Of a DNA stretch of 26,273 nucleotides, positions 4,006 through 26,273 are shown piece by piece. Source of the DNA: a virus; IMG/VR virus record IMGVR_UViG_3300030104_000046, positions 3,208-29,480 of that record. One strand, written 5' to 3'. Made by a program: the position numbers and the translations under genes. Position 1 is the first letter of the stretch; each line of letters opens with the position of its first letter. A model generated the notes under the pieces. The model made no database searches, was not told where the DNA came from, and was given only the letters and a program-made list of their open reading frames with translations.

Positions 4006-4960
4006 AGATTATTATAAACCGTTTGAATATCCATGGATGTTTGATTACTATGTATTACAGAATCAAATGCATTGGATGCCAGAGTCTGTGCCTTTACATA
4101 CAGATGTAAAAGACTGGCAAGAACTTACAGACACAGAAAAGAATTTACTAACACAGATATTTAGATTGTTTACTCAATCGGATGTCGATGTGGCTAGTGG
4201 TTATATAGATAAGTATATGCCTATCTTTAAAAAACCGGAAGCAAGAATGATGATGTCTTCTTTTGCTAACATGGAATCAATCCATCAACATGCTTACAGT
4301 TTACTACTTGATACTGTTGGTATGCCTGAGATAGAATATAAAGCATTCGCTGACTACGAAGAAATGGCAGACAAGCATGACTATGTTGGAAACTTTAAAC
4401 CTAGTAAAGCTAAAAAAGAAACCATAGCAAAAACTCTTGCTGTTTATTCTGCTTTTACTGAGGGACTACAACTCTTTAGTAGCTTTGCAATCCTGTTAAA
4501 CTTTCCAAGGTTCGGTAAAATGAAAGGTATGGGACAAATAGTTACGTATTCTATTCGTGATGAGTCTATGCACGTTGAAGCTATGACTAAATTATTTAGA
4601 GAGTTTATTAAAGAAAACATGGATATATGGACAGATGATTTTAAGAAAGAACTATATGACATCTGTAGAGAGATGGTAACATTAGAAGATAAGTTTTTAG
4701 ATTTAGTATTTGCAATGGGAGATATACAAGGACTAACTAAAAAAGATATGTATGCTTACAATAGATACATAGCTGATAGAAGATTACTACAACTTGGTTT
4801 AAAAACTAATTATGACCAAAGAGAAAATCCTTTAGGTTGGATTGATGAAGTAACTGGTGTCGAACATCAAAACTTTTTTGAAGGTCGTGCCACTACTTAT
4901 ATGAAAGCTGGACTTAGAGGTAGACAAGACAACATAACTTTTACAGGATTTGAAGAATGA
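3986..4960 (+). CDS. nrdB: Ribonucleoside-diphosphate reductase, small (beta) subunit
   Basis: A 324-aa class I ribonucleotide reductase beta subunit that holds the radical for NrdA. The metal ligands of the E. coli type are present: Asp66 (QSDVD), Glu97 and His100 (MESIHQHAY), Glu159 (FTEGLQLF), and Glu193 and His196 (RDESMH). Tyr104, seven residues after Glu97, is in the place of the radical tyrosine (E. coli Tyr122), so a standard di-iron tyrosyl-radical enzyme is expected. The C-terminal tail (NITFTGFEE) is the usual flexible peptide that docks on NrdA. AAGGGG lies 8 bases before the ATG. The small unknown gene before it overlaps by 20 bases and the one after by 4. Confidence 0.97.
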   Translation: MSLLGNRDYYKPFEYPWMFDYYVLQNQMHWMPESVPLHTDVKDWQELTDTEKNLLTQIFRLFTQSDVDVASGYIDKYMPIFKKPEARMMMSSFANMESIHQHAYSLLLDTVGMPEIEYKAFADYEEMADKHDYVGNFKPSKAKKETIAKTLAVYSAFTEGLQLFSSFAILLNFPRFGKMKGMGQIVTYSIRDESMHVEAMTKLFREFIKENMDIWTDDFKKELYDICREMVTLEDKFLDLVFAMGDIQGLTKKDMYAYNRYIADRRLLQLGLKTNYDQRENPLGWIDEVTGVEHQNFFEGRATTYMKAGLRGRQDNITFTGFEE

Positions 4961-5181
4961 AACAGAAAGAAGCAACTCTATTAGGCTATAAAGTTTTATA
5001 CAGTAGAACTGGTAAGTTAATTACTGAAAGAGTTTCTACAGATATTAAAGAATTAAAACCTTATTTTAGTCCAGAAGAGTATGCAACATTACAAACTGTA
5101 GTGCGAGAAAGTACAAGAAAGCTAGATGAAATACATAATTACATTGAAGCTAACCTAAATGCACGAATTATGACAGATTAA
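4957..5181 (+). CDS. Small protein at the end of the nrd operon, function unknown
   Basis: A 74-aa protein with a short N-terminal beta-like segment (GYKVLYSRTGKLI) and a helical C-terminal half (PEEYATLQTVVREST onwards). No family is recognised. It overlaps the nrdB stop as ATGA and is the last plus-strand gene before the convergent junction. A role linked to nucleotide metabolism would rest on position only. Confidence 0.75.
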   Translation: MKQKEATLLGYKVLYSRTGKLITERVSTDIKELKPYFSPEEYATLQTVVRESTRKLDEIHNYIEANLNARIMTD

Positions 5182-5304
5182 AGAAAATTGACTCACCAGA
5201 ATGCCCTGTATCGCAATATCTAACACTACCTAATGCGATAGGTATCATAAGTTAAACTTTGCAGTACAGAGCTTCTGTGTGCCTCTGAGAGGATTTAGCT
5301 ATAA
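5182..5304. other. Non-coding convergent junction rich in inverted repeats
   Basis: No ORF spans these 123 bases, the longest gene-free stretch in the window. They separate the plus-strand metabolism operon from the minus-strand late operon, both of which end here. They contain three separate inverted repeats: TATCGCA/TGCGATA (5209-5215 and 5234-5240), ACAGA/TCTGT with a 3-base loop (5266-5278), and CCTC/GAGG (5282-5292). A fourth, TAGCTA-TAAT-TAGCTA (5296-5311), runs into the end of hsp20. Two-way transcription termination is the simplest reading, but none of the four is followed at once by a T tract. I see no tRNA or attachment-site signature. Confidence 0.55.
5209..5240. repeat. 7-bp inverted repeat with 18-base loop
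   Basis: TATCGCA at 5209-5215 is matched by its reverse complement TGCGATA at 5234-5240. It lies in the convergent gene junction and could form a stem in transcripts from either side, or be a protein-binding site. No T tract follows directly on either strand. Confidence 0.5.
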
Positions 5305-5718
5305 TTAGCTAGATATACGTATCTTTTTAGGTTTTTCTTCTTCTGGAATGTTTTTTTCCAGTTCAATCACCAAGATACCATCAACAACTACTGCATCTTT
5401 TACTTCAACATACTCTGCTAAAGCAAATGTTTTAGTGAAGTCTTTTTCAGATATACCTTTATGGATATATTCTACTCCTTTCTTCTCATCTGTTTGTACA
5501 GCAGATACAGTAAGTGTTTTATCTTTAACCTCAACATCAATGTCTTCGACTTTAAATCCTGCCATTGCTATTTCGATTCGATATGCCTCACCTGATTTAA
5601 CTATGTTATAAGGTGGGTAGTTTGTTTGAGGTATTGATGCTCTTTGAAGTGTATCAAAGATTTCATCAAACCCAACTGAGAACGGACTGAATTGTCCAAA
5701 TGCTTTTAAATGTGTCAT
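5305..5718 (-). CDS. Small heat-shock protein, IbpA type (alpha-crystallin domain)
   Basis: A 137-aa class A small heat-shock protein, an ATP-independent holdase that keeps unfolding proteins soluble. It closely resembles IbpA/IbpB: GFDEIFDTL (16-24), YPPYNI (34-39), alpha-crystallin domain about 35-125 with AMAGF (51-55) and the DGIL turn (113-116), then a C-terminal IxI motif (Ile133-Arg-Ile135) used in oligomer assembly. The length is the same as E. coli IbpA. Small heat-shock genes are common in marine cyanophages and T4-like phages, where help in virion assembly or host stress control has been proposed. AAGGAG at usable spacing is the ribosome binding site. It is the last gene of the minus-strand block and, unlike its neighbours, has its own apparent promoter at 5777-5805. 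Confidence 0.95.
   Translation of the reverse strand: MTHLKAFGQFSPFSVGFDEIFDTLQRASIPQTNYPPYNIVKSGEAYRIEIAMAGFKVEDIDVEVKDKTLTVSAVQTDEKKGVEYIHKGISEKDFTKTFALAEYVEVKDAVVVDGILVIELEKNIPEEEKPKKIRISS
5311..5328 (+). terminator. Possible weak intrinsic terminator for the plus-strand operon
   Basis: AGATA (5311-5315), loop TACG (5316-5319) and TATCT (5320-5324), followed by further T to 5328. The loop is of UNCG type but the stem is short and AT-only, so this is a weak candidate. It lies inside the last codons of hsp20 on the opposite strand, about 130 bases past the final plus-strand stop. The TAGCTA hairpin just before it may help. Confidence 0.3.
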
Positions 5719-5745
5719 ATTAACTCCTTAATAAAGCAAGTTATT

Positions 5746-5768
5746 GAGTGCCGACCATTCGCACACTC
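5746..5768 (-). promoter_or_regulatory. Hairpin at the 5' end of the predicted hsp20 transcript
   Basis: On the minus strand GAGTG (5768-5764) pairs with CACTC (5750-5746). Inside, CGA and TCG can pair around an ATGG loop. It begins within a few bases of the transcript start predicted from the promoter at 5777-5805, about 28 bases before the hsp20 start codon. It does not cover the ribosome binding site, so it resembles a 5'-terminal stabilising stem more than a classical RNA thermometer. Confidence 0.45.
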
Positions 5769-5776
5769 TTATTTAT

Positions 5777-5805
5777 ATTATAGAGTCTTATTCAGGTTTT
5801 GTCAA
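5777..5805 (-). promoter_or_regulatory. Consensus sigma-70 promoter for hsp20
   Basis: Minus strand: TTGACA (5805-5800), exactly 17 bases of spacer, then TATAAT (5782-5777). Both hexamers match the sigma-70 consensus at all positions and the spacing is optimal. The -35 element lies inside the last codons of the adenylate cyclase gene. Predicted start of transcription is about 5770, giving a leader of roughly 50 bases to the hsp20 ATG at 5718. I found no comparable site elsewhere in the minus-strand block. It would be read by host RNA polymerase. Confidence 0.75.
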
Positions 5806-7548
5806 GTCTATTGTAGTATATATTTCTACTGGCTCTGCTATTCCTTTCATTGCTATTGGGTCTAGTTTAATTAAAGGTATGTCTGTTTGTTGTGCAGTAT
5901 TCTTAGCAATAACTATATCCTCTCCTACTTCTTTACAACTACTCTCACATCTAGCTGCAAGGTTTACATCTGAACCTATAGCAGTATAATCAAACCTATC
6001 TTCACTTCCACAGTTCCCAAGCATAACTATCCCAGAATTAATTCCTATACCAATTTCAATACCTAAGTCTGCCTCTTGCATCTTTTCTTTTATTTCTATA
6101 GCTGTAAGAATTGCTCTGTCCTCATGCATGTCTAAGTCTATTGGTGCATTAAAGATAGCCATCATCGCATCACCTATATATTTATCAACCATACCACCAT
6201 ACTTCTTAACTGCATTAGCTTGTATGGTTAATGTCTTGTTCATTAACTCTGTTACTTCTTCTGGTTCTAATTGTTCTGATAAGTTTGTAAAGCCTCTGAC
6301 ATCAGTAAACAACATGGTACAATACTTTCTTTCACCGCCTAGTTTTAAAGATTCTGGATTGTCTTGTAATTGTTTTACTTGTCTTGGGTCAAGGTAATGA
6401 CCAAACTGTTTCTTGATTTGTTGTCTAAGTTTATATTGTTCTCTGAATCTTAAATAGAATTGTTGTAATGACAAAAGTGTCATACATGTCATACTCCATG
6501 TGACATCAACTAAAAAGCCTCGTGATATTAAATAGTAACCGAGCCCACCCATCGACAGTATCAGCGTACCTGCCAATGATGCACCCATAGTAATACCAAA
6601 ATGATTTATCACGAAGACGATTAATAATCCTGAAATGCATAATAAAATAAGTTCTATAAATAATCTATAATCTGGAATTTGAGGAGAGTCTATTAAAATA
6701 CTTTCGGCTAAAGCTGCCTGTATCTTATGAGGTTCTAATAGTCCCTTTGGTGTAGCTAACTGTGGCATTACACCAGCAGCAGTCACGCCAACAAAAACAA
6801 ATGTACCTTCGACATCCATTTCTTCCAATGTTGTTTGTTTTGTATCTACCCAACTAATCCACTTCCTACCTAAACTGTCTGTACTAATTGGTGGTAGACC
6901 TCTAGCTCTTATCATCTCTATACCATTTTCGTTGGTCTTTATCTGATAAGTATTAGCACCAGCTAAAGTCTTTAATACTTCTGTACCAAAAGCAGCAACC
7001 CAACCATCAGGTGTTTGCTGTAGTAGTGGTAATCTTCTTACAAGGTTATCAACATCTACTGGAGCAGACACAGCACCTTGCGTAGCTGAATTACTTAAAG
7101 GTCTTATATTCTGTAAGAATCCTTTTGCTTTTGGTAAGTCTACATCTGGTCCAAGAATAACAGTACCATGAGTTTCTGGGTACATACCATTGTCAAACTC
7201 TGGCATAGCTAATACACTTGGAGCATAGCTTAATACATCAGAGAATATTTTATCACCACCAAACCTGTCATCCTGTGGAAATAATATTACCCAACCAACA
7301 CCTAATGCACCTTCGTTAAGTAAATCAATATGAATACTTGCTAAGTCTTGACGAGGAAAAGGATAGCCACCTTTAAGTTGTACATCTTCTTCTGTAATAT
7401 TTAATATAGTAAAATGACCTGAAGGTTCTGGTGTTTGTACTAAAGCATCAAAGGTTTTTAGTCTTAGTATTTCTAACGGTGCAAAATTAAACAACAAAGG
7501 TAATGTTAATAACCCTAGTAATAAACTTGCGTACTTTATATTAGTCAT
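5788..7548 (-). CDS. CHASE2-domain class III adenylate cyclase
   Basis: A 586-aa membrane-bound nucleotide cyclase. Order: N-terminal membrane anchor (about 6-23), extracytoplasmic CHASE2 sensor domain (about 28-290), three transmembrane helices (about 297-315, 320-341, 348-365), a short linker (FREQYKLRQQIKKQFGHYL), and a class III catalytic domain (about 405-580). Catalytic residues are complete: metal ligands Asp416 (LFTDVRGFT) and Asp460 (KYIGDAMM), adenine-selecting Lys456 and Thr522 (FDYTAIG), and transition-state Asn529 and Arg533 (VNLAAR). Lys plus Thr favours ATP over GTP. So it should make cAMP in the cytoplasm in response to a periplasmic or membrane cue. The start overlaps the fecR-like stop by 8 bases. 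In bacteria this CHASE2-cyclase often sits beside FecR proteins, as here. It is very unusual for a phage. Confidence 0.95.
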   Translation of the reverse strand: MTNIKYASLLLGLLTLPLLFNFAPLEILRLKTFDALVQTPEPSGHFTILNITEEDVQLKGGYPFPRQDLASIHIDLLNEGALGVGWVILFPQDDRFGGDKIFSDVLSYAPSVLAMPEFDNGMYPETHGTVILGPDVDLPKAKGFLQNIRPLSNSATQGAVSAPVDVDNLVRRLPLLQQTPDGWVAAFGTEVLKTLAGANTYQIKTNENGIEMIRARGLPPISTDSLGRKWISWVDTKQTTLEEMDVEGTFVFVGVTAAGVMPQLATPKGLLEPHKIQAALAESILIDSPQIPDYRLFIELILLCISGLLIVFVINHFGITMGASLAGTLILSMGGLGYYLISRGFLVDVTWSMTCMTLLSLQQFYLRFREQYKLRQQIKKQFGHYLDPRQVKQLQDNPESLKLGGERKYCTMLFTDVRGFTNLSEQLEPEEVTELMNKTLTIQANAVKKYGGMVDKYIGDAMMAIFNAPIDLDMHEDRAILTAIEIKEKMQEADLGIEIGIGINSGIVMLGNCGSEDRFDYTAIGSDVNLAARCESSCKEVGEDIVIAKNTAQQTDIPLIKLDPIAMKGIAEPVEIYTTIDLTKPE

Positions 7549-8650
7549 TTTGTTTTATTGTTATAGTCGATGAGCTACCACCGTTTACTATAATTTGTGT
7601 GCTCTTACCGTTTTGTACTAAGATAACCGTATAAGCATTATTTTTATCTAAATCTACTCTTACTGTATTTTCTAATGCTCTAATAAAAGTTATAGTATTA
7701 TCTGTAGTAAAAGTATTTATTTGTGTATCAGGGTCAAACCCTAATATTGTACCTTTTAAATCTAAACTAGCTTGAAGTAAAGTTTCAGTTTGGTCAAGCT
7801 CATTAACATCTTGTATAATGTCAAGCAAGTCCTCTAAAAAATTCACGTCAAGGTAATTTATATCTAGCTCTGTAAATTCTAAATCATCACTAGCTAAATA
7901 GTCTATATCCAAGTCCTCAAACTCAAGATAGTCAACATCAAGTAAGTTATTACTACCACTTGACACACTTTTCTCAGTAACATTTATATTCTCCTTTGGC
8001 GGATTGACAATCAACATGTTGTCTATTAGTTCAAGTGTTATATCTAATATTACAGGTTTAGTAGGTTCAGTTTCAAACATAGAAACTGTAGTAGCTTGAT
8101 AAGGTTGATTAAGTATAACCTCACCTACAGCAGTAGCAACAACTATCTCACCACTAGGAGTACCATCATCTTTTGGTAATAGTATAATTAAACTTTCACC
8201 CAGTTCATTGACTGTGATTGTAAAATCTGTACCACGAATTGATACGTTAGCACTTGGAGTACTAATAGCAATGTTTTCTTTATTAATAGTATTTAATTTA
8301 CCAGTAATAAATCTTGCTGTCCCACTTGCAAACTGCAAAGCCATCTTTGACTTTGATGGGTCAGGGTCGTAGATAAACTCATCAATGAGTAACTGTGAGT
8401 GCTCTGTTAATCTAACCTTAGTATCATTAAGAAATGTTATACCAATCCTACCATTAGTAGTCTCAACATTATCATAACTTTCAATACCAAAAGACAAGGC
8501 AGCATCATAAGGTTTATCCCTTACAATCCTGCCTGTTCCTTTAAATTCTGTTACGCTTCCAATATTAGCATCCGACTGCTGTGCCACCATCGTCTTGGAT
8601 AACACAAACAGTACCAGAATCGCCATTTGAAATAATCTTGAGCCAATCAC
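7541..8650 (-). CDS. FecR-domain periplasmic protein with acidic C-terminal repeat
   Basis: A 369-aa exported protein. It has a signal peptide (hydrophobic MAILVLFVLSK at 9-19, likely cleavage after Ala23), a FecR domain (about 30-185, with typical FLNDTKVRLTEHSQL and NVSIRGTDFTITV blocks), then a strikingly acidic segment (237-275) of repeated D-x-x-Y-L units, and a beta-rich tail (300-369). Classical FecR is an inner-membrane anti-sigma regulator, but this protein has no membrane helix after the signal peptide and belongs to the FecR plus CHASE2-cyclase type. It could be the ligand or partner of the CHASE2 sensor encoded next (inference from the 8-base overlap). The start is GTG at 8650, since an in-frame TAG lies two codons upstream and the ATG at 8626 gives a poor signal peptide. 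This forces an 86-base overlap with the curlin gene. Confidence 0.85.
   Translation of the reverse strand: MIGSRLFQMAILVLFVLSKTMVAQQSDANIGSVTEFKGTGRIVRDKPYDAALSFGIESYDNVETTNGRIGITFLNDTKVRLTEHSQLLIDEFIYDPDPSKSKMALQFASGTARFITGKLNTINKENIAISTPSANVSIRGTDFTITVNELGESLIILLPKDDGTPSGEIVVATAVGEVILNQPYQATTVSMFETEPTKPVILDITLELIDNMLIVNPPKENINVTEKSVSSGSNNLLDVDYLEFEDLDIDYLASDDLEFTELDINYLDVNFLEDLLDIIQDVNELDQTETLLQASLDLKGTILGFDPDTQINTFTTDNTITFIRALENTVRVDLDKNNAYTVILVQNGKSTQIIVNGGSSSTITIKQND
7826..7942 (-). repeat. Acidic D-x-x-Y-L repeat coding region in the FecR-like gene
   Basis: Codes for about 39 residues with repeated units LDVDYLEFED, LDIDYLASDD, LEFTELDINYL and LDVNFLED, spaced 9-12 residues apart. Nearly half the residues are Asp or Glu. 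The alternation of hydrophobic and acidic residues suggests stacked beta strands or a calcium-binding surface (inference). Confidence 0.6.
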
Positions 8651-9278
8651 TTGCTAAAGTACTCTGTTGTTGTATATTAAAGGTTCTTAAACTACCTGTT
8701 TGGTCTAAATAAAAATAACCATTAGCATAGCCATCACCATCATAAGTTACAGTATTACTATCTCCATCTATATCTACAAAGGAAGTAGCACCATCAACAT
8801 CTATATCAAATGTTAAAGTATTGCTACTACCATTGATAATCCAATCTAAATCTGTATTACTTGCTATAGCATTTGTAGCTAAATCCAAGTTAAATGTGTT
8901 ACTGTCACCAGTAGCTTGAACATTTAGATTAGAACCATCAGCACCGTAAGTATTAGTAGGGTCAACTTGAATAGTAAATGCATTTGAATTACCATCAAAA
9001 TTAAAATAACCAACAATATTATCTCCTAGTATATCACCAAGAAATGTATTACTGTCACCTATTTGATTTAATATTAAATCCAAAGTATTACCATCCAAAT
9101 CTAATGGAGTTAGACTTCCAGCAGTAGAGTCAAGCCCACCTATAATGTTGCCTGAACCAAGTTGCTCTAAATCTATATTAGCAGTATCACCTGATTGGTC
9201 TATATATATTTCGTTGTCAGCCCCGTACAATGATACATTCAACATCATTGCAAGGGTCAATAATTTTAATATTTTCAT
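8565..9278 (-). CDS. Curlin-like secreted amyloid subunit
   Basis: A 237-aa secreted protein built of curlin-type repeats. The signal peptide runs to about Ala20 (NVSLYGA). The mature part opens with IYIDQSGDTANIDLEQLGSG, close in style to CsgA/CsgB repeats, and the G-x-S-N signature recurs at 41-44 (GSGN), 74-77, 96-99, 124-127, 150-153, 172-175 and 219-222 (GDSG), each followed by alternating hydrophobic beta residues. Spacing is 22-33 residues, looser than the roughly 22 of E. coli CsgA. It is rich in Asp, Asn and Thr. Two cysteines lie at the end (225 and 237). It would be the fibre subunit exported through CsgG. It overlaps csgG by 62 bases and fecR by 86. Whether it is CsgA-like or CsgB-like cannot be told. 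Confidence 0.85.
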   Translation of the reverse strand: MKILKLLTLAMMLNVSLYGADNEIYIDQSGDTANIDLEQLGSGNIIGGLDSTAGSLTPLDLDGNTLDLILNQIGDSNTFLGDILGDNIVGYFNFDGNSNAFTIQVDPTNTYGADGSNLNVQATGDSNTFNLDLATNAIASNTDLDWIINGSSNTLTFDIDVDGATSFVDIDGDSNTVTYDGDGYANGYFYLDQTGSLRTFNIQQQSTLASDWLKIISNGDSGTVCVIQDDGGTAVGC

Positions 9279-10065
9279 ATTCCCAATACCCTCTTTCTAT
9301 TCCTATTTCTATTAAATTAAAAACTGCTGTCTCTACTGCCTTTTGCAAAGCAATAGAGCCAACCTCGTTCTCAGCGATGCCTCCTTCTATTTCTACTAGT
9401 TCAGTACCAGCTTCAATAAATCGGAAGACATCTTGAGATACACTTGTTGATAAAACATTTTTAGATACCGTAGTCTCTAATAATATTTCACCAGTTGACA
9501 CAGAAACTAATCGTAATGATATAGTTACTACGTCTTCTCGGTATTGTTTCGTGTTACCTATTCCTAAGTAACGTGCCCCAATACCACCAGATTGAATGTT
9601 TGTATCATAACTTATAACTCCACCTTGTACTATAAGACCAGCAAATAGTAAGGGTTGTAGTTTTAAGTCTTCCTCAAAGTTCTCTCTGGTTGACCGGATT
9701 AGTTGTCGTTCTTTGGTAAGATTATCTAACCCTACCCTTTCAACAACTCTAAAAAATTCACCATTAGCAGCATGTTTTAAAGCTCTAATAAGCAATGCTT
9801 CTGGAGCTTGAGTAACTGCTGTACTAAATAAAGCAAAGCTACTATTACTTTTTCTTTGCCCTGTTAAGTCTTGAAAACTGTTAGCATATACTGCTATAAT
9901 TGGTTTAATTTTTGCAGGAGGTAAATCAGCTAACTCTTGAGATTGTAAATCTAATACGTTAGCAGGTTCTATATTTTGTGTTAAAACTAAATCTGTATTC
10001 TTACTTAATACTGCACAACCACTAAAAGCTAAAATCGCCAATAGGCAACTCAATAATTGTTTCAT
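9217..10065 (-). CDS. csgG: Curli secretion channel lipoprotein CsgG
   Basis: A 282-aa homologue of CsgG, the nonameric outer-membrane lipoprotein pore of type VIII secretion. The lipoprotein signal is MKQLL...AFSGC, with the lipidated cysteine at 17. Strong family blocks follow: STAVTQAPEALLIRALK (81-97), FFRVVERVGLDNL (104-116), QSGGIGARYLGIG (158-170), LRLVSVSTGEIL (185-196), SVSQDVFRFIE (208-218) and ERGYWEYEN (257-265). The length is like E. coli CsgG (277). Against my memory of E. coli CsgG, the constriction loop keeps the Phe (Phe80, E. coli Phe56) but not Tyr51 or Asn55. The open frame extends to a TTG at 10083, but the ATG at 10065 gives a normal lipoprotein signal and is preferred. 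It overlaps csgF by 44 bases and the curlin gene by 62. Confidence 0.94.
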   Translation of the reverse strand: MKQLLSCLLAILAFSGCAVLSKNTDLVLTQNIEPANVLDLQSQELADLPPAKIKPIIAVYANSFQDLTGQRKSNSSFALFSTAVTQAPEALLIRALKHAANGEFFRVVERVGLDNLTKERQLIRSTRENFEEDLKLQPLLFAGLIVQGGVISYDTNIQSGGIGARYLGIGNTKQYREDVVTISLRLVSVSTGEILLETTVSKNVLSTSVSQDVFRFIEAGTELVEIEGGIAENEVGSIALQKAVETAVFNLIEIGIERGYWEYENIKIIDPCNDVECIIVRG

Positions 10066-10489
10066 TCCCATCTGCATCGACAATCCTTAATGTTATAATT
10101 CCATCTTCAATACTATACTCAATAGTATTACCTTCTAATTCTAATATGCCACTTGTACTTGGAGTCTCACCAAATAAATTTTCTACTAGCTGTCTTGATA
10201 GTTGTGCATATATTCTAGACTCTAAGTTTCTTATAAACCTTGCTAGTGTAGTATTCTCTTTATCTCTTTCTATTTGTTCTTGAATAGCTTTTAGTTCTTC
10301 TTTAATAGTCATCTTTCTTGAAAACTCTTGATTCTCTATGGTAAGATAATGTGCAGAAGTACCTATCCCACTAAAACTAGGGTTCTTAAATTGATGTACC
10401 ATCTCATCAGCTTTTATATCTGTTACTGCAAATAATGCTAATAAAAATATACTTACTAATGTTGCCATCTCAATCTTTTCTTTGGTCAT
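10022..10489 (-). CDS. csgF: Curli assembly factor CsgF
   Basis: A 155-aa secreted homologue of CsgF, which in E. coli plugs the outer face of the CsgG pore and presents the nucleator to growing fibres. The signal peptide ends near Ala27. The mature N-terminus contains VHQFKNPSFSG (31-41), matching the family motif FxFxNPxFGG that inserts into the CsgG barrel. A helical region (about 60-105) and a beta-rich C-terminus (about 113-150, ending GDFSF) follow the E. coli domain order. It precedes csgG, as in the bacterial order csgF-csgG. The start at 10489 overlaps the preceding membrane-protein gene by 20 bases. An in-frame ATG at 10468 would avoid the overlap but lose the basic start of the signal peptide. 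Confidence 0.92.
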   Translation of the reverse strand: MTKEKIEMATLVSIFLLALFAVTDIKADEMVHQFKNPSFSGIGTSAHYLTIENQEFSRKMTIKEELKAIQEQIERDKENTTLARFIRNLESRIYAQLSRQLVENLFGETPSTSGILELEGNTIEYSIEDGIITLRIVDADGNETIIELPIGDFSF

Positions 10490-10820
10490 TTCTTTCTGCC
10501 TTTGCTATCTTTTCTATATCAATTAAATTTGGAACACCTACCAAAGTCTTTAACAATACATCTTGTCTAATACTTTGATTGTCCAATGCTCTTACTCTAT
10601 CAATTAAACTTACAATAATACCATATTGACTATCAAGTTTAGTTGACACCCTTTCTTCCATAGTGTCTAATGCAGTTTGTACTTTTTCATCTAGGGTATC
10701 TAGTTTAGTTTCCATACCATCAATAATTCTATTGATAAGTTTCCAAACAAAAATACCTAGTCCTAAAGCTGCTGCAATAGGAAAACCTAATTCAGTTATT
10801 AGTGCTACTGCCGACTCCAT
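10470..10820 (-). CDS. Membrane-anchored coiled-coil protein, possible second holin or lysis regulator
   Basis: A 116-aa protein with one N-terminal membrane helix (about 4-27, LGFPIAAALGLGIFVWKLI) followed by a long charged coiled coil (about 32-85). The short MESAxxLIxxxGFPIA start resembles small BhlA/UviB-type phage holin-like proteins. It is encoded directly after the three-helix holin (TAATG overlap), so a lysis role such as pinholin, antiholin or membrane partner is likely but unproven. No spanin pair (Rz/Rz1 type) is visible nearby, so it could also be a divergent inner-membrane spanin part, although the C-terminus has no outer-membrane anchor. Confidence 0.6.
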   Translation of the reverse strand: MESAVALITELGFPIAAALGLGIFVWKLINRIIDGMETKLDTLDEKVQTALDTMEERVSTKLDSQYGIIVSLIDRVRALDNQSIRQDVLLKTLVGVPNLIDIEKIAKAERNDQRKD

Positions 10821-11290
10821 TAGTCTTGCTTATGTGAAGCCCCAAAGTAAAAAGATATAACAGCACTAGCAAGTCCACCAAGATAACCTAACACTAGGTT
10901 TATTAGAGCCTCACTATTCTGTTCTGGTGGTTGTAAAGTAACTAAAAATATATAGGCTAAAAATCCACCTACTGTGGCTACACCCATAATTCTAGCTGTC
11001 CAATCTTTTGAAAATCTTCCTCTAGCATCTTGAGTATCTGCAACTTCTAGTTTAAATACATCAACATCTAGTTCTTTCATTTGAACTTCAAAAGCTTGTT
11101 CAGCTTTTTTAAGTTCTAGCATTTGTTCAGGTGTTGCTTCTGCTATACCTTTCTCTATTGCTTTAGGATTGTTAGGTACACCTAAAACTTCTGCTATCAT
11201 ATTAGCAGCCATACCACCCATAGGTCCACCTAAAGCAGTACCTAGTGTTGGAGCTACAGCACCTACTACGTTCTTTAATAAATTTTTCAT
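10820..11290 (-). CDS. Three-helix phage holin (GTA_holin_3TM-like)
   Basis: A 156-aa holin candidate of the GTA_holin_3TM type, which makes holes in the inner membrane so that lysozyme reaches the peptidoglycan. It has a Gly/Ala-rich N-terminal hydrophobic stretch (9-37), a charged helix (55-95, ending in the family-like KDWTAR at 95-100), and two clear membrane helices (100-119 and 129-150) with a short loop between. AAGGAT upstream of the ATG is the ribosome binding site and lies inside the preceding 49-aa ORF, whose TGA overlaps this start as ATGA. Lysozyme is encoded just upstream, a typical lysis cassette. Confidence 0.82.
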   Translation of the reverse strand: MKNLLKNVVGAVAPTLGTALGGPMGGMAANMIAEVLGVPNNPKAIEKGIAEATPEQMLELKKAEQAFEVQMKELDVDVFKLEVADTQDARGRFSKDWTARIMGVATVGGFLAYIFLVTLQPPEQNSEALINLVLGYLGGLASAVISFYFGASHKQD

Positions 11291-11436
11291 AATATATCCT
11301 TATATAATATTTCTAATATTTGTTCAAACATGATTCTAAAATCTTGTAGTGTTATAAAAGCCATGTCTTGTTTGACTTGTGTTACCCTATAAAAATGGTA
11401 AGCATCTTCTAATTGCTTTTCAGTATACAGAATCAT
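11287..11436 (-). CDS. Small ORF (49 aa) in the lysis cassette, function unknown
   Basis: An open frame of 49 codons fills the space between lysozyme and holin. It starts at ATG 11436 inside the end of the lysozyme gene (17-base overlap) and ends in a TGA that overlaps the holin ATG as ATGA. The product has QLEDAYHFYRVTQVKQ (8-23) and an Ile/Leu-rich end. It is probably helical with no membrane segment. I have a faint memory of DAYxxYR-type small proteins in marine phages but no function. The ribosome binding site is weak. The exact fit between its neighbours and the ATGA coupling are the main evidence. Confidence 0.6.
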   Translation of the reverse strand: MILYTEKQLEDAYHFYRVTQVKQDMAFITLQDFRIMFEQILEILYKDIL

Positions 11437-11881
11437 TTTGCTGTAATACTAAATCTTGTAGTTCTTTACTACGTCTACCCACTTGACCAAACCAACGACT
11501 GTCTTCCATTTGTCTAGCCATCTCATTCCAATCATGTTTTCTACAAGCTGCTAACATATTTTTAAATTTAGATAATCTTGTACCACCTAAATTAAAACAC
11601 ATATTAACTATGACTCGTTGTATAGCTTCTGGTAAGTTTTTAAAATCTTCCTCACCTACTATATGTATAGCTTCTAATAAATGTTTATTAAAGTCACTAT
11701 CATAATACATATCTACTACTTCTTGAGAAACAGCAGTACCAACTTCCCAAGAATACTCAGGGTCTTCTGGCTGACATAGATGTCCAACACCAAGAGTTTT
11801 ATAGCCTAAACTATCCATGTATATTTCTAACACTTCACCTTCGTGTCTTTTTATTTCAGCTTTACATTGTTCTATGTTCAT
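11420..11881 (-). CDS. T4-type lysozyme (endolysin, GH24)
   Basis: A 153-aa muramidase that cuts peptidoglycan at lysis. The T4 lysozyme catalytic triad is exactly spaced: Glu14 (HEGE), Asp23 (YMDSLGY) and Thr29 (KTLGVGH), corresponding to Glu11, Asp20 and Thr26. Later family blocks include VNMCFNLGG and RWFGQVGRRSKEL. There is no signal peptide or signal-anchor, so it needs a holin for release, consistent with the holin gene that follows. I start at ATG 11881, two bases after the stop of the large virion gene. The open frame reaches 11899, but that would add six residues before the conserved start. Confidence 0.94.
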   Translation of the reverse strand: MNIEQCKAEIKRHEGEVLEIYMDSLGYKTLGVGHLCQPEDPEYSWEVGTAVSQEVVDMYYDSDFNKHLLEAIHIVGEEDFKNLPEAIQRVIVNMCFNLGGTRLSKFKNMLAACRKHDWNEMARQMEDSRWFGQVGRRSKELQDLVLQQNDSVY

Positions 11882-11883
11882 AA

Positions 11884-14800
11884 TTAATTTACTCCCCATA
11901 TTTTTTTAGCTTGTTTTATTGTAGCATCATTATATGATTTTTCTTTAGATGATAATGTATGATGATTATATAAATAAGCATTCATAGAAGCCTCTTTATT
12001 ACCTTCAAATAAAGCTGGTGTCAAATATCTATCACTACCCTCTGATTCAAAAATATTAGAAAGGAATAATGCATCTTGAATACTTTCCGATACAACAGAA
12101 GAATCATTACTATTTAAAATAGATTGAAATATTTTTGATTGTTCACCTGTAAAAAATCTATTAGTTGCTCTGTTATAAGCTGTCGGTACACTTCCTTCTA
12201 AAAATTGATAATAACCTGAAGCAGAACTTTTTAATTTATTTTTTCCTCTAGCTAAATTTTTATTTTTACTTTCAGCAAACTTAGTATTATCTATTAATAC
12301 TTGTGCATTACGTTTAAATGTATCATAAGAAACATTTTTGTATTCTGGATTATCTTTAATTAAACGAGCATACTCTATTTGTAATACAACATCATTTAAG
12401 TCTTTATTAGCTTTACCACCTTTAACTAATCCAAGTCTAGCCATCTGGTCAGAGTAAGGTGCTCCTGTAAAAGGGTCTACTCTGTCTGCTGCATTTTCTT
12501 TAGTATAAGGAACTTCTGGTCCTGATACTAAGCCACCTGTTACAAAATTTTCTCTAAGTTCATCACGAAGTTCCTTTAAATCTTCTTTTTGTTGTTTATA
12601 ATTATCTGGGTCAACTAATATTGGTAAATTACTAAAGTTTCTATCAATTTCATCTATTATTTGTAATAAATCTACGTATTCTGCAACACTATTAGTTGAG
12701 TCTAATAATTTTTGTTTAGTTCCATCAGTTAAACCTATAGGATTAAAAGATGGTCTTCCTACAAAAGATGCTATATCTATTTCACTCATACCAGCTTCTT
12801 TCATTAAATTTAAAGTATCTAAATTAAAATGATTAGCAGATTTATTTATTTTGTGAAACTTAGAATATTGTTTATAATATTTTTGATTTTCTTCTAAATA
12901 TCTATTAGTAAATTTATCTATATTTAAAGGTCTTGTAATTGAATCGTTTATTCTTGTTCTTCTTTTACCTTTATCTCTTACAATTTGAAAAACTTTCATT
13001 TTATAAATATTTTCTTTATATTCATCATTAAGAGGCATAGCACCCCAACCTGTTAAATATTTTAAAAATTGTTGTGTTGGATAAATATCTTGGTCCCATT
13101 CTGTTTTTTCTTTTCCTATAGTATCTATATAATCTACTCCTCTTGTTATAGTAGCAGGAGTTATAGCTTCTAAAAGATTACTAGATAAAATAGTTAAATT
13201 ATCTATATTCATCCAATTGTCTATTAATGTTCCACTATCATCATATTTTTGAGTTTTATCAAAAGCATTACGAATTAATTTACCATTTATATCTCTACCA
13301 TTTCTAATAATATAATTACTTAATTGTTCTTGTATAATAGATTCACCTAAAAATGGCGAAACAGTTTCTGTAAGAGTTGTTGTTAAAATATCTTTTATAA
13401 TATTTTCATCGTCTAATATAGGTTCTGATAAAGCTTTATTTATAATAATTTGAAATGGTTTTTTAGGAAAATCGTAAGCATCCCAAGAACTTAAATTAGA
13501 TATCATAGGTGTACCATCATCTGACAAAGTTACAATAACTTTTGAATTTTGCATATAATCAGGTTGAAAATCTTTAGCTGCTTCTAAATCTTCTTTACCA
13601 AAACCTGTAACTGTTTGATAACCTTTTTCAGCGACATCTGCACCTGCTCCTGCTACAGCAGTAAATGAACCTAATCTTTTTAATCCTCTATTTCTTATAA
13701 TTTTTCCAGCTTCTGTATCACCATTTTTAATTATTTGATTTCCTGAATTAACTTCTTTAATTCCTCTATATAAACTGTTAGTTGTAATTCTTACTGATTC
13801 TGACATAAAAGAAAAGAACCTACCAAAAAAAGGAGTTCTTCTTAAATCTTGTAAAAGTTCTGGAACTAAATCATAGTTAGGTAAAACATCTCTTACCATT
13901 CTAGCTGCTCTATCTTTAATTTCATTATCAGTTAATTTTAACGGTGAATTTTCTGGTAAAGCATTATTAAACTTTTTTAAATATTCTTGCTCTCTAAAAT
14001 ACATATTAATCTTAAAAAAATCATCTTCTGCTACATATGTTTTTTGTGCTCCTGATGCTATTTTTTTAATTGATGTAGACTTGAATTTTTTATTTTTTAA
14101 AGATATATAAGGAATAACTTCTCTTCCAAACACCCAATCAAGACCACCTAAAACTTTTCCTTTTGGTAAACTATCTACATCTTTTGCTAATCCTAATAAC
14201 TCTCTAGCTACTACACCTTTATTTAATAATCCTCTACCTGAAAGTTCTTCATGTAGTTGTTGTAATTCTTCATTATTACTTGTTCTAGCTTTTAATATAT
14301 TTTTAATTTTTAAAGTTTCTTTTACAGAAAAAACATTAACACCATTAGCTAATGACATTTGAACTCCACCCATAATATTTTTAATATGAGTAGCATGAGA
14401 CCAAACTGTTTTAGCTGCTTGAGATAAACCTTTTAAAACTACCATTCCTCTCCAAGCAGTATTATTTTCTAACATAGTTTGACCCATTCTTTTATAATCA
14501 CTAAAGTATCTTAACATTTCTGGAGTTGTATGCAAACCTGATAACTTACCAAACCCTTGAGGTATTACTTCGTTAAAGATTCCTTCTTTTTGTTCTCTAA
14601 AATATATACCTAAACCATCTTGATAAGCTTCTTGATAAAATTTATTATCTTCAATTAATCTACTTAATTTTGTAGTTGAGCTAATAAGTTTTTGAATAGG
14701 GTCTGTTACTTCACCAAGTAAATTTTTGATTTCTGTCGGTATTACTTTTTTACCTTTTAATATTTGTGTTCTTAATTTATCAAACTTATTTAAATTAGAT

Positions 14801-21907: not shown

Positions 21908-24900
21908 TTATTCCTCCTTTAAGGTTTGTATTTCGGCTTTTAATTCATCTACTTGCGTAGATAGTTGTTGAACTGCATTAATTAAAGGTGTAATAAACAT
22001 TTCTCTTGAAATGCTTTGACTACCATCTTTGCGTTCTTTCCAACCTCCAAAAGTATCAACACCCTCTTTATCTAATGCCTCTTTAACTTCTTGAGCAATC
22101 ATACCATGTATTACTGCATCAAGATTCATGTTGTTTTCTTCGCTGTACTCATCCCATTCTTTAGGAAATTCATTGCTTGGTTTCCATTGGAAAGTTACAG
22201 GTCTTAAATTATTAATAAAAGATAAACCTAAGTTATCATCATTAACATTCCTTTTCTTTCTTATATCAGATGTTCTAGTCCAAGCAGCATCTGTATCAAA
22301 TTCATTTTGAACTACATTACTAGCTTTACCAAAAGTAAATTGAGAGTTTTCTCCGCCTGATATATTATGACCTATAACAATTTGATTTACTGCACCATTA
22401 CCTGATGGGTCAGTGCTTAGACCAATACAAACATTATCTGTTCCTGTTGTAATTACATCACCTGCTTGGGAACCAATAAGTGTATTTCCACCCCCCGTAG
22501 TAACTGATTCACCTGAATCTTTCCCCAAAGTAGTATTATCTGAAGCTGTGGTGTTAGCTGTTAAAGCATTTCTACCAATAGCTGTATTACTAGCACCCGA
22601 TGTAGTTGCTGTAAGAGCATTAGTTCCCATGCAAGTATTATCATGTCCAGTCATTACTGCTGTACCACCAGCAAAATAACCTACTGCGGTTAGGTCATCT
22701 AGTGTAGTTGCGTTTGCACCAGCTCCCACACCTATAACAGTGTTTCTATCTCCAGTTGTAATATCTTCACCAGCATCTTGACCTACAAAAGTATTTGCAT
22801 CTCCAGTAGAACATAGTCTACCTGCATCAAGACCAACAGCTGTGTTATTACTGCCTGTTGTATTTGTTTCTAAAGCACTATGTCCAACTGCTGTATTACT
22901 ACTGGCAGTAGTATTAGAACTTAATGCTGCTCTACCAATAGCTGTGTTGTTGCTGCCTGTAGTATTAGCATCAAAAGCATAAGTACCGACTACTGTATTT
23001 TGTGCTCCTGTAGTATTAGCAGTAGCAGCATCATATCCGATTGCTATATTGTCGTTAGCGGTAGTATTAGCATCAAGAGCTAAACTACCAACTGCTGTGT
23101 TTCTTGTACCTGTCGTGTTTGATAATAAGGCTTTATTGCCTACTGCTGTGTTGTTTGAGGCTGTGGTATTTGCATTTAAAGCACCATAACCTACGCCTAC
23201 ATTATCTATACCAGTTGTAGTAGATTGCAATGCTAATCCACCTACAGCTGTATTTTTAGTACCTGTGGTTATAGAAGTTCCTGCTTGATAACCAACTGCT
23301 ACGTTGTATACATCGGTAGTGGTAGTAAAATTTTGGGCAAGGAGAGCCTCGTTTCCTATAGCAACAGACCTGTCTCCTAAAGTATCTGCACCTAAAGCAT
23401 TAACACCAATAGCAATATTATTATTTCCTGTCGTTAAAGCATCACCTGCTAAAGAGCCTAACGCTGTGTTTGCAAAGCCTGTAGTATTTGATGTTAAAGC
23501 AGATTTACCAACTGCTGTATTGTTATCTGCTGTAGTGTTTGCAGCTAAAGCACTTGCACCAACAGCTGTATTGTTATCTGCTGTGGTGTTTGCTGTTAAA
23601 CTTGAAGTACCAAGAGCTGTATTTGTTGAACCTGTGGTGTTAGCATCAAGAGCATTACCACCGACAGCTACATTTGATGCACCTGTAGTATTGGCTGCTA
23701 AGGCAGTTCTACCTACAGCTGTATTAAAGTCTGCTGTAGTGTTTGCTGTTAAAGCACTTGTTCCTACAGCTGTATTATAAGCTCCTGTAGTGTTTGATGC
23801 TAGGGCTTGTTTTCCAACCGCTGTATTATTAGATGCAGTTGTATTAACCTTTAAGGCTTCTCTACCTATAGCTGTGTTACTACTACCAGTAGTTAAACTT
23901 GTTAAAGCTCTTTCACCAAAACCTGTATTATTATCACCAGATGTTAAGTCATCAAAGACTTCAAAACCTACGCCTGTGTTGTTGCTTGCAGAATCTAAAG
24001 TACCTGTGCCAGCATCGTTACTAATAAGTAAACTGTTTGAAAAGTTTGTAATATTAAAAGCTATACCTACGCCATTGATTGTGCCTGTAAAGGTTGTATT
24101 TCCTGAGGCATCAATGGTAACTCTTTCACTGCCACCTGTATGAAATTGTATTGTTTCAGTGCCAAACTCTGCATTTGCATCAGCAGTTAATACTAATGAG
24201 CCACTTAAGCCTGCTATAGAAGCATCATAATTATTGTCGGTATCTGTAAAATTTATTGCTGGTGTGCCTTCTGAAATTGTAATATCACCACCAAAAGTTG
24301 CACCTTTATTAAAAGTAGCTGCACCTGCTTCTGACATATCAAGGGTAAGGGCTGTTACGCTAGAACCACCATCGTTTCCTGTAAATATAATATCTTTATC
24401 TGATACACTTGACCTAATTGTTAGATTTGAAGAATCCATATTAATATGACCAACTTCTGTTCCAGCATCTTTAAATCTTATTTGGTCTCCAGCTGCATCA
24501 AGAATAATATCTCCTCCTACATCTACAGTTAAATCGCCACTATCAGAAATAGTAGAACCATTAATTGTTATATCATCTACTGTAAGGGTTGATAGCGTAC
24601 CAAGACTTGTAATGTTTGTCTGTGCTGCTGTAGATAACGTACCTGCTAGTTCTCCACTAGAACCATAAACAACTGCTTTGCTATTTACAACTGTGTTAGC
24701 TGTAGAGCCATCTAATAAATTTAATTCTGTTGCAGTACTTGTAACACCATCTAAGATATTAAGTTCAGCTGGTGTTGAAGTAATAGCAGTTGTTGTAGCT
24801 GCTGCCAAGACTGGAATATACCCACCTTGGTTTATTAAATACTGTGTATGGTCTGCTGTTGGGTCTACAATACTAAGTGTAGTTTCATTTGAATCTGCTG

Positions 24901-26273
24901 TAGCTCCTTCAAAAATAATAGCATTTGAAGCCTCCATAGTAACCGTATCTGCTGTAGTGGTTGTTCCTGCTACAGTAAGTTTAGGAACTAATAGTTCTCC
25001 TGTACTTGGATTATATCTTAAAGCACCTGTGTCATCTAATAAACCATTTGATTCATCATGGAAGACTACAGGGAAATTTGTGTTTGCTGTGCTATCTGTA
25101 ACTGTAGTCGTAGCAGCTAGTGTTGCATTTGATACTGTAGTTCCTGCTATAACACTTGCTAAAGCAGTTCCGTTTACTGTAATTGCATCGGCTTCTAAAG
25201 TACCGTCTATATCTACATCTCCACTTACATCTAAAGTGGCTGCATCTAGTTCACCTGTAATTGTTAAATTTCTTAAACCTGTGTAATCTTTATTAGAATC
25301 TAAAACAACAGCTTTAGAAGCTATTGCTGTGCCTACAGCAGTTGAACCTAAATCAAGATAATTAAGTTCACCAACAACAACTGTTGCTCCATCTAAGATG
25401 TTTAACTCTGCAGCTGTGCTTGTAACATTTGTTCCACCAATATCTAGTGTAGTCATTGAAACTTCACCTGCTACTGTTAAAACTCCATCAGCAAGAGTCA
25501 TTAAATCTGTATCGTCTGTATGACCTATTGTTGTACCATTAACTATTACATTATCAACTGTAAGTGTTGTAAGTGTTCCAAGACTTGTAATGTTTGGTTG
25601 TGCTGCTGTTGTAACTGTAGCTGCTGTACCAGTTGTATTTTGATTTAATGTACCAACTGTAAAATCTAATGTATTATCTGAATCATCATAGGCTACAGTT
25701 ATTCCTGACTCTGTATTAGAAGTTACCATAGCTCCTACAGTATCACTAATTGTTTCTGCTAGTGTAACACCACCAATAGTAATTGCATCAGCTTCTAATG
25801 TTCCATCTATGTCTGCATCACCACTAATATCTAATGTAGCTGCATCTAATTCACCACTAATAGTAATATTTCTACCACCAGTAATGTCTTTGTTTGAATC
25901 TGTTATAATAGCTTTACTTGCTATTACTGTTCCGTTTGTTATACCATCTATTAAATTAATATCAGTTGCACTAGCTGTAACACCATCTAAAATATTTAGT
26001 TCTGCAGCAGTACTTGTTACTCCGTCAAGGATATTTAGTTCTGCAGCTGTTGATGTTACTCCATCAAGTATGTTAAGTTCTGCAGCAGTTGAAGTAACTC
26101 CATCAAGAATATTAAGTTCGGCTGCTGTAGATGTTACTCCGTCTAAGATGTTTAGTTCTGCTGCTGTTGCAGAAATTGCAGTACCATTAAAGTTAATTGC
26201 ATCTACATAAGCAACCCCATCAATATATAAATCTTTCCATTCAGAACCTGAAGCACCTAAGTCATAAGTATTA
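21908..26273 (-). CDS. Tail fibre with LNILDG repeats, 17-residue head repeats and S74 autoprocessing domain (5' end outside window)
   Basis: The frame stays open from 21908 to the right edge, so at least 1454 residues are present and the N-terminus is missing; the first in-window ATG (25729) is internal. From N to C: five tandem AAELNILDGVT units, more single copies, two diverged copies of a GELDAATLD...DGTLEADAIT block, then about 30 units of 17 residues (NTAVGxxALxxNTTGxx) like the heads of trimeric adhesins, and finally a peptidase S74 intramolecular chaperone: TSDIRKKRNV with the Ser-Asp cleavage site coded near 22268, FINNLRPVTFQW, HGMIAQEV and a C-terminal coiled coil. S74 domains trimerise fibres and then cut themselves off. 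The protein should bind the host surface. Confidence 0.93.
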   Translation of the reverse strand, partial: NTYDLGASGSEWKDLYIDGVAYVDAINFNGTAISATAAELNILDGVTSTAAELNILDGVTSTAAELNILDGVTSTAAELNILDGVTSTAAELNILDGVTASATDINLIDGITNGTVIASKAIITDSNKDITGGRNITISGELDAATLDISGDADIDGTLEADAITIGGVTLAETISDTVGAMVTSNTESGITVAYDDSDNTLDFTVGTLNQNTTGTAATVTTAAQPNITSLGTLTTLTVDNVIVNGTTIGHTDDTDLMTLADGVLTVAGEVSMTTLDIGGTNVTSTAAELNILDGATVVVGELNYLDLGSTAVGTAIASKAVVLDSNKDYTGLRNLTITGELDAATLDVSGDVDIDGTLEADAITVNGTALASVIAGTTVSNATLAATTTVTDSTANTNFPVVFHDESNGLLDDTGALRYNPSTGELLVPKLTVAGTTTTADTVTMEASNAIIFEGATADSNETTLSIVDPTADHTQYLINQGGYIPVLAAATTTAITSTPAELNILDGVTSTATELNLLDGSTANTVVNSKAVVYGSSGELAGTLSTAAQTNITSLGTLSTLTVDDITINGSTISDSGDLTVDVGGDIILDAAGDQIRFKDAGTEVGHINMDSSNLTIRSSVSDKDIIFTGNDGGSSVTALTLDMSEAGAATFNKGATFGGDITISEGTPAINFTDTDNNYDASIAGLSGSLVLTADANAEFGTETIQFHTGGSERVTIDASGNTTFTGTINGVGIAFNITNFSNSLLISNDAGTGTLDSASNNTGVGFEVFDDLTSGDNNTGFGERALTSLTTGSSNTAIGREALKVNTTASNNTAVGKQALASNTTGAYNTAVGTSALTANTTADFNTAVGRTALAANTTGASNVAVGGNALDANTTGSTNTALGTSSLTANTTADNNTAVGASALAANTTADNNTAVGKSALTSNTTGFANTALGSLAGDALTTGNNNIAIGVNALGADTLGDRSVAIGNEALLAQNFTTTTDVYNVAVGYQAGTSITTGTKNTAVGGLALQSTTTGIDNVGVGYGALNANTTASNNTAVGNKALLSNTTGTRNTAVGSLALDANTTANDNIAIGYDAATANTTGAQNTVVGTYAFDANTTGSNNTAIGRAALSSNTTASSNTAVGHSALETNTTGSNNTAVGLDAGRLCSTGDANTFVGQDAGEDITTGDRNTVIGVGAGANATTLDDLTAVGYFAGGTAVMTGHDNTCMGTNALTATTSGASNTAIGRNALTANTTASDNTTLGKDSGESVTTGGGNTLIGSQAGDVITTGTDNVCIGLSTDPSGNGAVNQIVIGHNISGGENSQFTFGKASNVVQNEFDTDAAWTRTSDIRKKRNVNDDNLGLSFINNLRPVTFQWKPSNEFPKEWDEYSEENNMNLDAVIHGMIAQEVKEALDKEGVDTFGGWKERKDGSQSISREMFITPLINAVQQLSTQVDELKAEIQTLKEE
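22400..23985 (-). repeat. About 30 tandem 51-base units coding head-type repeats of the tail fibre
   Basis: Each 17-residue unit has the pattern N-T-A-[VI]-G-x-x-A-L-x-x-N-T-T-[GA]-x-x. Unit spacing is regular apart from one longer unit near 23310. DNA copies have diverged, but the two neighbouring units near 23500-23600 are nearly the same at DNA level. Confidence 0.88.
25130..25410 (-). repeat. Diverged duplicate of the fibre segment at 25750-25990
   Basis: Both segments code for the same order: GELDAATLD[IV]SGD, D[IV]DGTLEADAIT, then SKA[IV][IV].DSNKD[YI]TG upstream and an LNILDG-type unit. They differ by many synonymous and some amino-acid changes, so this is an old internal duplication. 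Confidence 0.6.
25979..26173 (-). repeat. Five tandem 39-base units coding AELNILDG repeats
   Basis: The 13-residue unit TSTAAELNILDGV is repeated five times head to tail, mostly by synonymous changes between copies. Degenerate single units recur near 25380 and 24740. The LNILDG unit is common in marine phage fibres. Confidence 0.85.

Follow-up and report, generated by a model that had tools for sequence, protein, structure and literature searches.

PMC9599517 describes an adenylate cyclase (AC) and a FecR-domain protein alongside curli genes in pelagimyophages and in podoviruses of the HTVC023P type, gives the cassette an alphaproteobacterial origin, states that known Pelagibacter have no type VIII secretion system (T8SS), finds viral curli proteins at every one of the 65 ocean stations examined and proposes "an alternative route to T8SS regulation"; CHASE2 is not mentioned in its text. 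Curli genes are also reported in PMC7029224 and PMC9004378, and the word cyclase occurs in neither. A search for pelagiphages and adenylate cyclase returned PMC9599517 only, and "phage-encoded adenylate cyclase" and like phrases returned nothing; the sequence records of HTVC008M and Melnitz do annotate the gene as a cyclase. The gene family and its setting are already in print. What we add comes from a stretch of 26,273 nucleotides (hereafter the window; positions 3208-29480 of the 29,480-base virus record IMGVR_UViG_3300030104_000046) that carries a CHASE2-class III adenylate cyclase gene: the recognition that this is a CHASE2/FecR pair, the finding that Crp-type receptors are scarce, a curlin-like tail on FecR, and a set of rearrangements. 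We give about even chances to the reading that FecR and this CHASE2-cyclase form an envelope-signalling pair within a pelagiphage curli cassette, with the cyclase as output enzyme and its cyclic AMP (cAMP) acting outside the PF00027 family, or locally or metabolically.

A translation check places the open reading frame (ORF) of the cyclase, 586 amino acids long, on the minus strand of the window (Table 1); the plus strand read from 5788 meets many stops. Here a first-pass annotation, made from the letters of the window, had announced a complete CHASE2-cyclase without giving a strand, and at the level of sequence the gene is indeed complete. The CHASE2 domain (PF05226, E 2.3e-23, 83.5 bits versus a cut-off of 26.3) lies N-terminal of the cyclase output domain (Guanylate_cyc, PF00211, E 1.4e-18, 67.6 bits versus 21.9), both exceeding the curated cut-offs of Pfam. 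The six residues named in advance, D416, K456, D460, T522, N529 and R533, are all found at those numbers, and they comprise the two metal aspartates, the adenine-selecting Lys/Thr pair and the Asn/Arg pair of a class III enzyme. An AlphaFold model built from a 31-row alignment has a mean predicted local distance difference test (pLDDT) score of 88.5, and its predicted helices are compatible with an extracytoplasmic sensor held between predicted membrane helices. By sequence as well as by fold the nearest solved structures are class III cyclases, among them CyaB (3r5g), Cya2 (2w01, in a record titled guanylyl cyclase) and CyaC (1wc1). That a phage carries the gene is borne out by the ribonucleotide reductase, lysozyme and virion structural genes of the window, and by relatives in viral contigs. 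The further claim, that the phage inserts its own cAMP-producing receptor into the host membrane, stands as far as a catalytically intact-looking, membrane-type CHASE2 cyclase goes; judging from its sequence the protein would make cAMP, and its predicted topology would place the sensor outside the cytoplasm.

The enzyme is not a rarity. When viral contigs were scanned with it, at least 597 of 600 matched stretches encoded relatives, making the cyclase common in marine viral contigs. We kept the best 80 of these stretches, which together with HTVC008M and Melnitz make 82 related loci (L002-L083); L001 and L084 are excluded from phage counts. Matches to Acinetobacter phage MD-2021a were set aside, since in the one inspected (L084) the adenylate cyclase sits among mfd, hscA and iscU in what is apparently bacterial DNA, and a Salmonella record (OR851715, 1499 bases) was not used. 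The pattern D, K, D, T/S, N, R is found at the six residues in 80 of 83 aligned cyclases (the window plus 82), the exceptions being two truncated sequences (L016 and L032) and Melnitz (L083), where the series is D, K, D, D, S, R. With an aspartate at the T522 position and a serine at that of N529, the Melnitz enzyme may be altered in specificity or activity. Nonsynonymous change (dN) is roughly fivefold or more below synonymous change (dS) in all seven pairs tested (NG86; dN/dS 0.04-0.19; for the window against L002, 0.017/0.213), so that the cyclase is under purifying selection in each of these pairs. Because the six residues are conserved in 80/83 sequences and dN/dS is this low, we consider that the catalytic site is kept by selection. 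Identity to the cyclases of Melnitz and HTVC008M is 33% and 30%. Four relatives (L066, L073, L077 and L079) share 79-80% identity with the window in their CHASE2 part, against 45% in their cyclase part, which is 58-59% identical to that of HTVC008M; by this sequence pattern, the catalytic domain is exchanged within the gene.

The adjacent surface genes of which the first-pass annotation spoke form a curli (type VIII secretion) cassette. Along the minus strand the order is lysozyme, a 156-aa protein, a 116-aa protein, CsgF, CsgG, a curlin-like protein, FecR, cyclase and Hsp20, and 8 nt are shared between the end of the FecR gene and the beginning of that of the cyclase. The cyclase is not an isolated moron; it follows csgF-csgG-curlin-FecR, and the window has CsgF, CsgG, curlin, FecR and AC in the order that defines the pelagiphage T8SS cassette. 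Where the arrangement is the usual one and the locus includes 4.3 kb or more on the upstream side of the cyclase, all four partners are present (48/48 loci). The curlin assignment is a weak one: the putative curlin, whose CsgB match reaches 23 bits versus an NCBIfam cut-off of 165, owes its name to weak family matches and to its occupying the same place as the genes annotated as curlins in HTVC008M and Melnitz.

The association of FecR with a CHASE2-cyclase extends to bacteria. A scan of bacterial genome contigs with the phage cyclase alignment gave at least 571 related stretches, and the best 80 that we kept are 27-32% identical to the phage enzyme and belong, by title, mostly to Alphaproteobacteria, plus SAR86 and a few others. 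With the phage FecR profile, FecR was detected in the fetched flanks of 28 of these 80 loci, in 20 cases upstream of the cyclase and on its strand; about 0.6 would be expected from a background of 73 PF04773 stretches in 58 random Alphaproteobacteria (some 160 Mb as a sum of rounded sizes). The enrichment is large but rough, because the two figures come from different detection methods and the 80 loci share genera. Profiles for CsgG and CsgF matched in 0/80 of the same loci. Conversely, 142 genomes yielded two alphaproteobacterial csgF loci, and at these neither FecR nor cyclase was found within the fetched 19 kb. As neither type of bacterial locus holds the genes of the other, FecR/CHASE2-cyclase and curli appear to be separate modules in the bacteria examined, joined in phages. 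In a FastTree phylogeny of 99 rows (80 bacterial, 17 phage and 2 from SAR11-family assemblies) the 19 phage-type cyclases share one side of a branch with support 100. Published work agrees with such a pair: most Campylobacterota CHASE2 cyclases are described as clustered with a FecR-domain protein (PMC9239204), and in Sinorhizobium (S.) meliloti CyaD1 without CHASE2 is reported to produce cAMP constitutively and a FecR-domain protein to be a target of Clr (PMC5498481).

A possible point of contact between the pair and the amyloid is the end of FecR. Among 70 phage FecR proteins (leaving aside incomplete ends and proteins no longer than 200 aa), 69 terminate in G-x2-[NS]-x-[AIVL]-x-[VIL]-x-Q, the exception being Melnitz with a shifted version, and 68 have [QN] two positions before the glycine of the motif. 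This motif has the register of the curlin repeat consensus. It occurs in the body of 0/70 phage FecR proteins, in 0/28 bacterial FecR neighbours and in 78 of 14,000 shuffled tails. A hidden Markov model of the tail, run against 3,515 phage ORFs, gave 22 non-FecR matches at E<=10, 16 of which are curlins, while curlins account for 70 of all ORFs; 75 labelled FecR matches and 3 unlabelled ones judged to be FecR by their ends were set aside from this ranking. The likeness of tail and curlin is suggestive, not proof. We found no description of it in the literature, including the available sections of PMC9599517, the one paper returned by a search on the subject being about E. coli promoters, and it is possibly a new observation, one that offers a testable link between the cassette amyloid and a signalling enzyme.

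The gene order is not immutable. In 8 of the 82 loci (L004-L010 and L016) the cyclase is inverted, together with whichever of hsp20 and a downstream hairpin is present and in view, and follows the reductase genes; hsp20 inverts jointly with the cyclase in relatives that have both. Six of these loci have FecR in view and there the cyclase stands tail to tail with it, the other two being judged by the reductase gene. The inversion breaks at gene borders, and no convincing flanking inverted repeats were seen at the borders of the cyclase-hsp20 block. On a cyclase tree of 80 rows, 7 of them inverted (L016, L032 and L068 were left out), the inverted form needs at least two changes and the clade of the window lies inside the inverted group; the inversion must therefore have recurred or reverted. 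Expression late in infection, as the first-pass annotation had it, is not shown, given that the cyclase runs in the reductase direction in these loci.

As for the host, the large subunit of the reductase has as its best 10 of 4342 matching records nothing but Pelagibacter phages, at 54-59% identity. The 1511-aa structural protein matches 9 records, i.e. HTVC027P (the best, E 2e-25), 023Pt_psg01, six Cellulophaga phages and one Pseudoalteromonas phage, and no match covers more than 39% of its length. On these matches the virus would be a relative, among pelagiphages, of the HTVC023P type described in PMC9599517, and its host is probably SAR11. We took as the SAR11 family the 99 genomes of the family of G300, a genome that shares only with G210, among 385 class members, the SAR11 16S probe 732R. 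All four SAR11 probes match both genomes. Two assemblies of this family also bear on the question: PF00211 is present in 3/99 genomes, in 2 of them over the cut-off, and both of these are in phage-type cassettes, CsgF-CsgG-CsgA-FecR-AC in G395 and CsgA-FecR-AC in G431. These cassettes could tie such phages to SAR11 assemblies, although a binning error is possible.

In these hosts the usual receptor is scarce. PF00027, the Crp-type receptor domain, is found in 141/190 Alphaproteobacteria and in just 5/99 genomes of the inferred SAR11 family, a search that is blind to receptors of other folds and covers genomes that may be incomplete. The domain is found in 0/19 phage records, which comprise complete HTVC008M and Melnitz and 17 possibly fragmentary virus records. 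Three exact patterns of Crp-type palindrome were searched in the window, looser sites not being included, and none occurs. A SAR11 paper in which CRP occurs uses it as the name of a phage. The typical host thus seems to have no evident Crp-type receptor for the cAMP of this cyclase. Steering of host catabolite control, put forward by the first-pass annotation, which looked to Crp-family proteins in the host and Crp-type sites in the phage, is not borne out by either search; with the likely host, that reading fails. The annotation had also named the want of a cAMP receptor in any plausible host as what would count against it; for receptors of the Crp type, and if the host is SAR11, this is largely what we observe.

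The mechanism that we favor, at about even chances as stated above, would run as follows. CsgG and CsgF would export the curlin-like protein. Periplasmic FecR, with its curlin-like repeat at the very end, would sense or dock on the curlin or the secretion pore and signal to the extracytoplasmic CHASE2 domain, which would control the conversion of ATP to cAMP by the cytoplasmic cyclase. The tails suggest, in other words, that FecR relays the state of the curli to the cyclase. The cAMP would act on a receptor outside PF00027, or exert a local or metabolic effect, rather than exercise catabolite control; one or other of these routes is the most likely because most SAR11-type genomes and the phages show no Crp-type receptor. 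We infer the contact with FecR, the sensing of curli state, the identity of the host and the target of cAMP. A bolder version, which we advance only tentatively and consider improbable, is that of a self-contained outside-in circuit, working in hosts that typically have neither a class III cyclase nor a Crp-type receptor, in which the FecR repeat would read the state of curli secretion or fibres and the cAMP would reach a receptor, of phage or host, of a kind not yet known for cAMP. If the hosts are truly without a Crp-type receptor, a conserved and selected cyclase would point to a novel cAMP target in bacteria that are among the most abundant in the sea.

Several observations weigh against this reading. 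Seven of the 9 records matching the 1511-aa protein are Cellulophaga or Pseudoalteromonas phages, so that the host may not be SAR11, and the scarcity of PF00027 could itself mean a non-SAR11 host or another purpose of the cyclase. Inversion has taken the cyclase out of the FecR operon in 8/82 loci, so that co-transcription with FecR is not obligatory. The expected number of FecR neighbours comes from Pfam counts and the observed one from a phage profile applied to the best 80 loci, several of which are titled Bradyrhizobium, and the comparison with alphaproteobacterial curli covers 2 loci, neither with FecR or cyclase nearby. Concerning the tail, the pattern was defined after the tails had been inspected, two bacterial FecR proteins (L100 and L128) extend to the end of their locus with tails possibly cut, and the FecR model is poor (pLDDT 36.4). 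In the ranking of ORFs, which are mutually related, the best curlin match has E 2.2 and is not significant singly, and the top two non-FecR matches (E 1.1) are not curlins: they are the 116-aa proteins of L075 and L076.

Among the alternatives, the one that survives best is regulation by the cyclase and FecR, via cAMP, of nothing other than transcription of the phage's own curli cassette, along the lines proposed in PMC9599517. The constant membership of the cyclase in the cassette speaks for it, and we think it unlikely, though worth keeping in mind, since neither the phages nor most SAR11-family genomes show a DNA-binding cAMP receptor of the PF00027 type and the receptor would have to lie outside that family. 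Rather less likely still is a role in lysis timing or in the energy state of the cell, through cAMP, a drain on ATP or gating of the CsgG pore, and not in gene expression: on one strand the cassette comes after lysozyme and a gene that is possibly holin-like, and PMC9004378 proposes a possible role of phage CsgGF in lysis, whereas in the inverted phages the cyclase has taken the direction of the reductase.

The idea that the phage raises cAMP to steer a host Crp regulon, and with it catabolite control, energy metabolism or surface genes, we hold to be quite improbable. It draws on the intact look of the cyclase sequence and on how common PF00027 is in Alphaproteobacteria at large; the counts in SAR11-family genomes and phage records, the want of an exact Crp-like palindrome in the window and the pelagiphage affinity of the reductase all go the other way. 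A counter-defence or Pycsar-like enzyme that makes defence cyclic nucleotides or competes with them is very unlikely, for although the cyclase domain matches the PycC models of PADLOC (best E 6.8e-27), models that catch class III cyclases generally, the nearest solved relatives are ordinary adenylyl and guanylyl cyclases with 7r65, a Pycsar cyclase, far lower (E 1.6e-8), and the residues are the adenine-selecting K/T pair. Membership in a Pycsar system was rejected on its neighbours too, FecR and Hsp20 not being Pycsar effectors.

Table 1. Features of the cyclase locus in the window (positions are those of the window; E values refer to the family or profile named).
Feature	Position	Strand	Evidence and remarks
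Long conserved RNA hairpin just after hsp20	5170..5304	-, cyclase strand	then UCAAUUUU
Hsp20 small heat-shock protein, downstream of cyclase	5305..5718	-	PF00011 E 8.9e-19
CHASE2-class III adenylate cyclase	5788..7548	-	helix 2-19, CHASE2 18-307, helices 295-342 and 350-382, cyclase domain 409-575
FecR-domain protein, 369 aa, curlin-like repeat at extreme C-terminus	7541..8650	-	PF04773 E 7.5e-10
Curlin-like (CsgA/CsgB) protein, 237 aa	8565..9278	-	NCBIfam CsgB E 5.3e-5; Pfam Curlin_rpt E 0.062
CsgG outer-membrane curli pore	9217..10083	-	PF03783 E 2.8e-50; 46% identical to HTVC008M CsgG
CsgF curli assembly factor	10022..10489	-	PF10614 E 9e-18
116-aa protein just upstream of csgF	10470..10820	-	matched in 54/82 related loci
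156-aa protein beside lysozyme gene, perhaps holin-like	10820..11290	-	PHROG 1544 (unknown function) E 4.9e-26
Phage lysozyme/endolysin, upstream of cassette	11420..11899	-	PF00959 E 1.3e-7; PHROG endolysin E 3.2e-16

Some of these assignments call for comment. The true start of csgG may lie somewhat downstream of the listed TTG. The 156-aa protein is named a holin in 1 of the 15 matches listed, out of 114 matching phage records. Elsewhere in the window, positions 21908-25729 of the minus strand encode a very long, repetitive, tail-fibre-like protein with many NTTA/NTAVG repeats, whose C-terminal stretch resembles an S74 chaperone domain. No tRNA genes were found in the window.

The hairpin that follows hsp20 is a further conserved element. 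The fold of 5176-5310 has a z of -5.4 (-3.4 on the opposite strand), and a profile made from 10 seeds finds it, at E<=10, on the cyclase strand after hsp20 or cyclase in 29 of 83 sequences. RNAalifold returned no structure on 27 aligned hairpins, an alignment made without L012 and L020. The window's own fold was instead counted on the 13 closest rows against 500 shuffles. Paired cells, cells changed on both sides (48 versus 26.8 in shuffles) and the covariation score exceed all 500; the number of pairs with change on both sides (16 versus 13.8, with 74/500 shuffles as high) and the pair types (165/500 as high) are not outstanding. No Rfam family matches in the window at its gathering threshold, three matches in 5100-5800 being far below their gathering scores. 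The hairpin is perhaps an unusually long terminator; it is absent from the terminator-like sites of a consensus scan of 4800-12000, which gave no excess of either kind of site (29 promoter-like versus 31.8 expected, 3 terminator-like versus 2.5 expected). Where the cyclase gene ends, ahead of hsp20, positions 5805-5777 of the minus strand hold a 12/12 match to the sigma-70 consensus TTGACA-17-TATAAT, followed by a hairpin-like leader that is also seen in L015 and L011. A ROSE_3 match is far below its gathering score. It is possible that hsp20 is separately controlled.

Compared with described systems, the phage enzyme has its cyclase fold in common with the catalytic domains of Pseudomonas (P.) aeruginosa CyaB and Spirulina CyaC, proteins whose sensor domains are other than CHASE2. 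Closer are the bacterial CHASE2 cyclases that come with FecR, S. meliloti CyaD1 and the Campylobacterota cluster, which resemble it in uniting CHASE2 with a class III cyclase and in having a FecR gene nearby; bacterial loci of this kind differ from those of phages in CsgG/CsgF (0/80), in the FecR tail (0/28) and in an identity of about 27-32%. Within the cassette of PMC9599517, a histidine kinase is said always to precede csgF, whereas no histidine kinase domain is found in the window at E<=1 with Pfam and NCBIfam in the two genes before csgF (those of the 116-aa and 156-aa proteins); our guess is that the published label may be based on a coiled coil. HTVC008M has a hypothetical gene and Melnitz a second curlin-repeat gene between FecR and cyclase, where the window has none. 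The pelagiphage T8SS cassette of these two phages is otherwise the system that the window resembles, with csgF-csgG-curlin-FecR-cyclase in the same order and on one strand.

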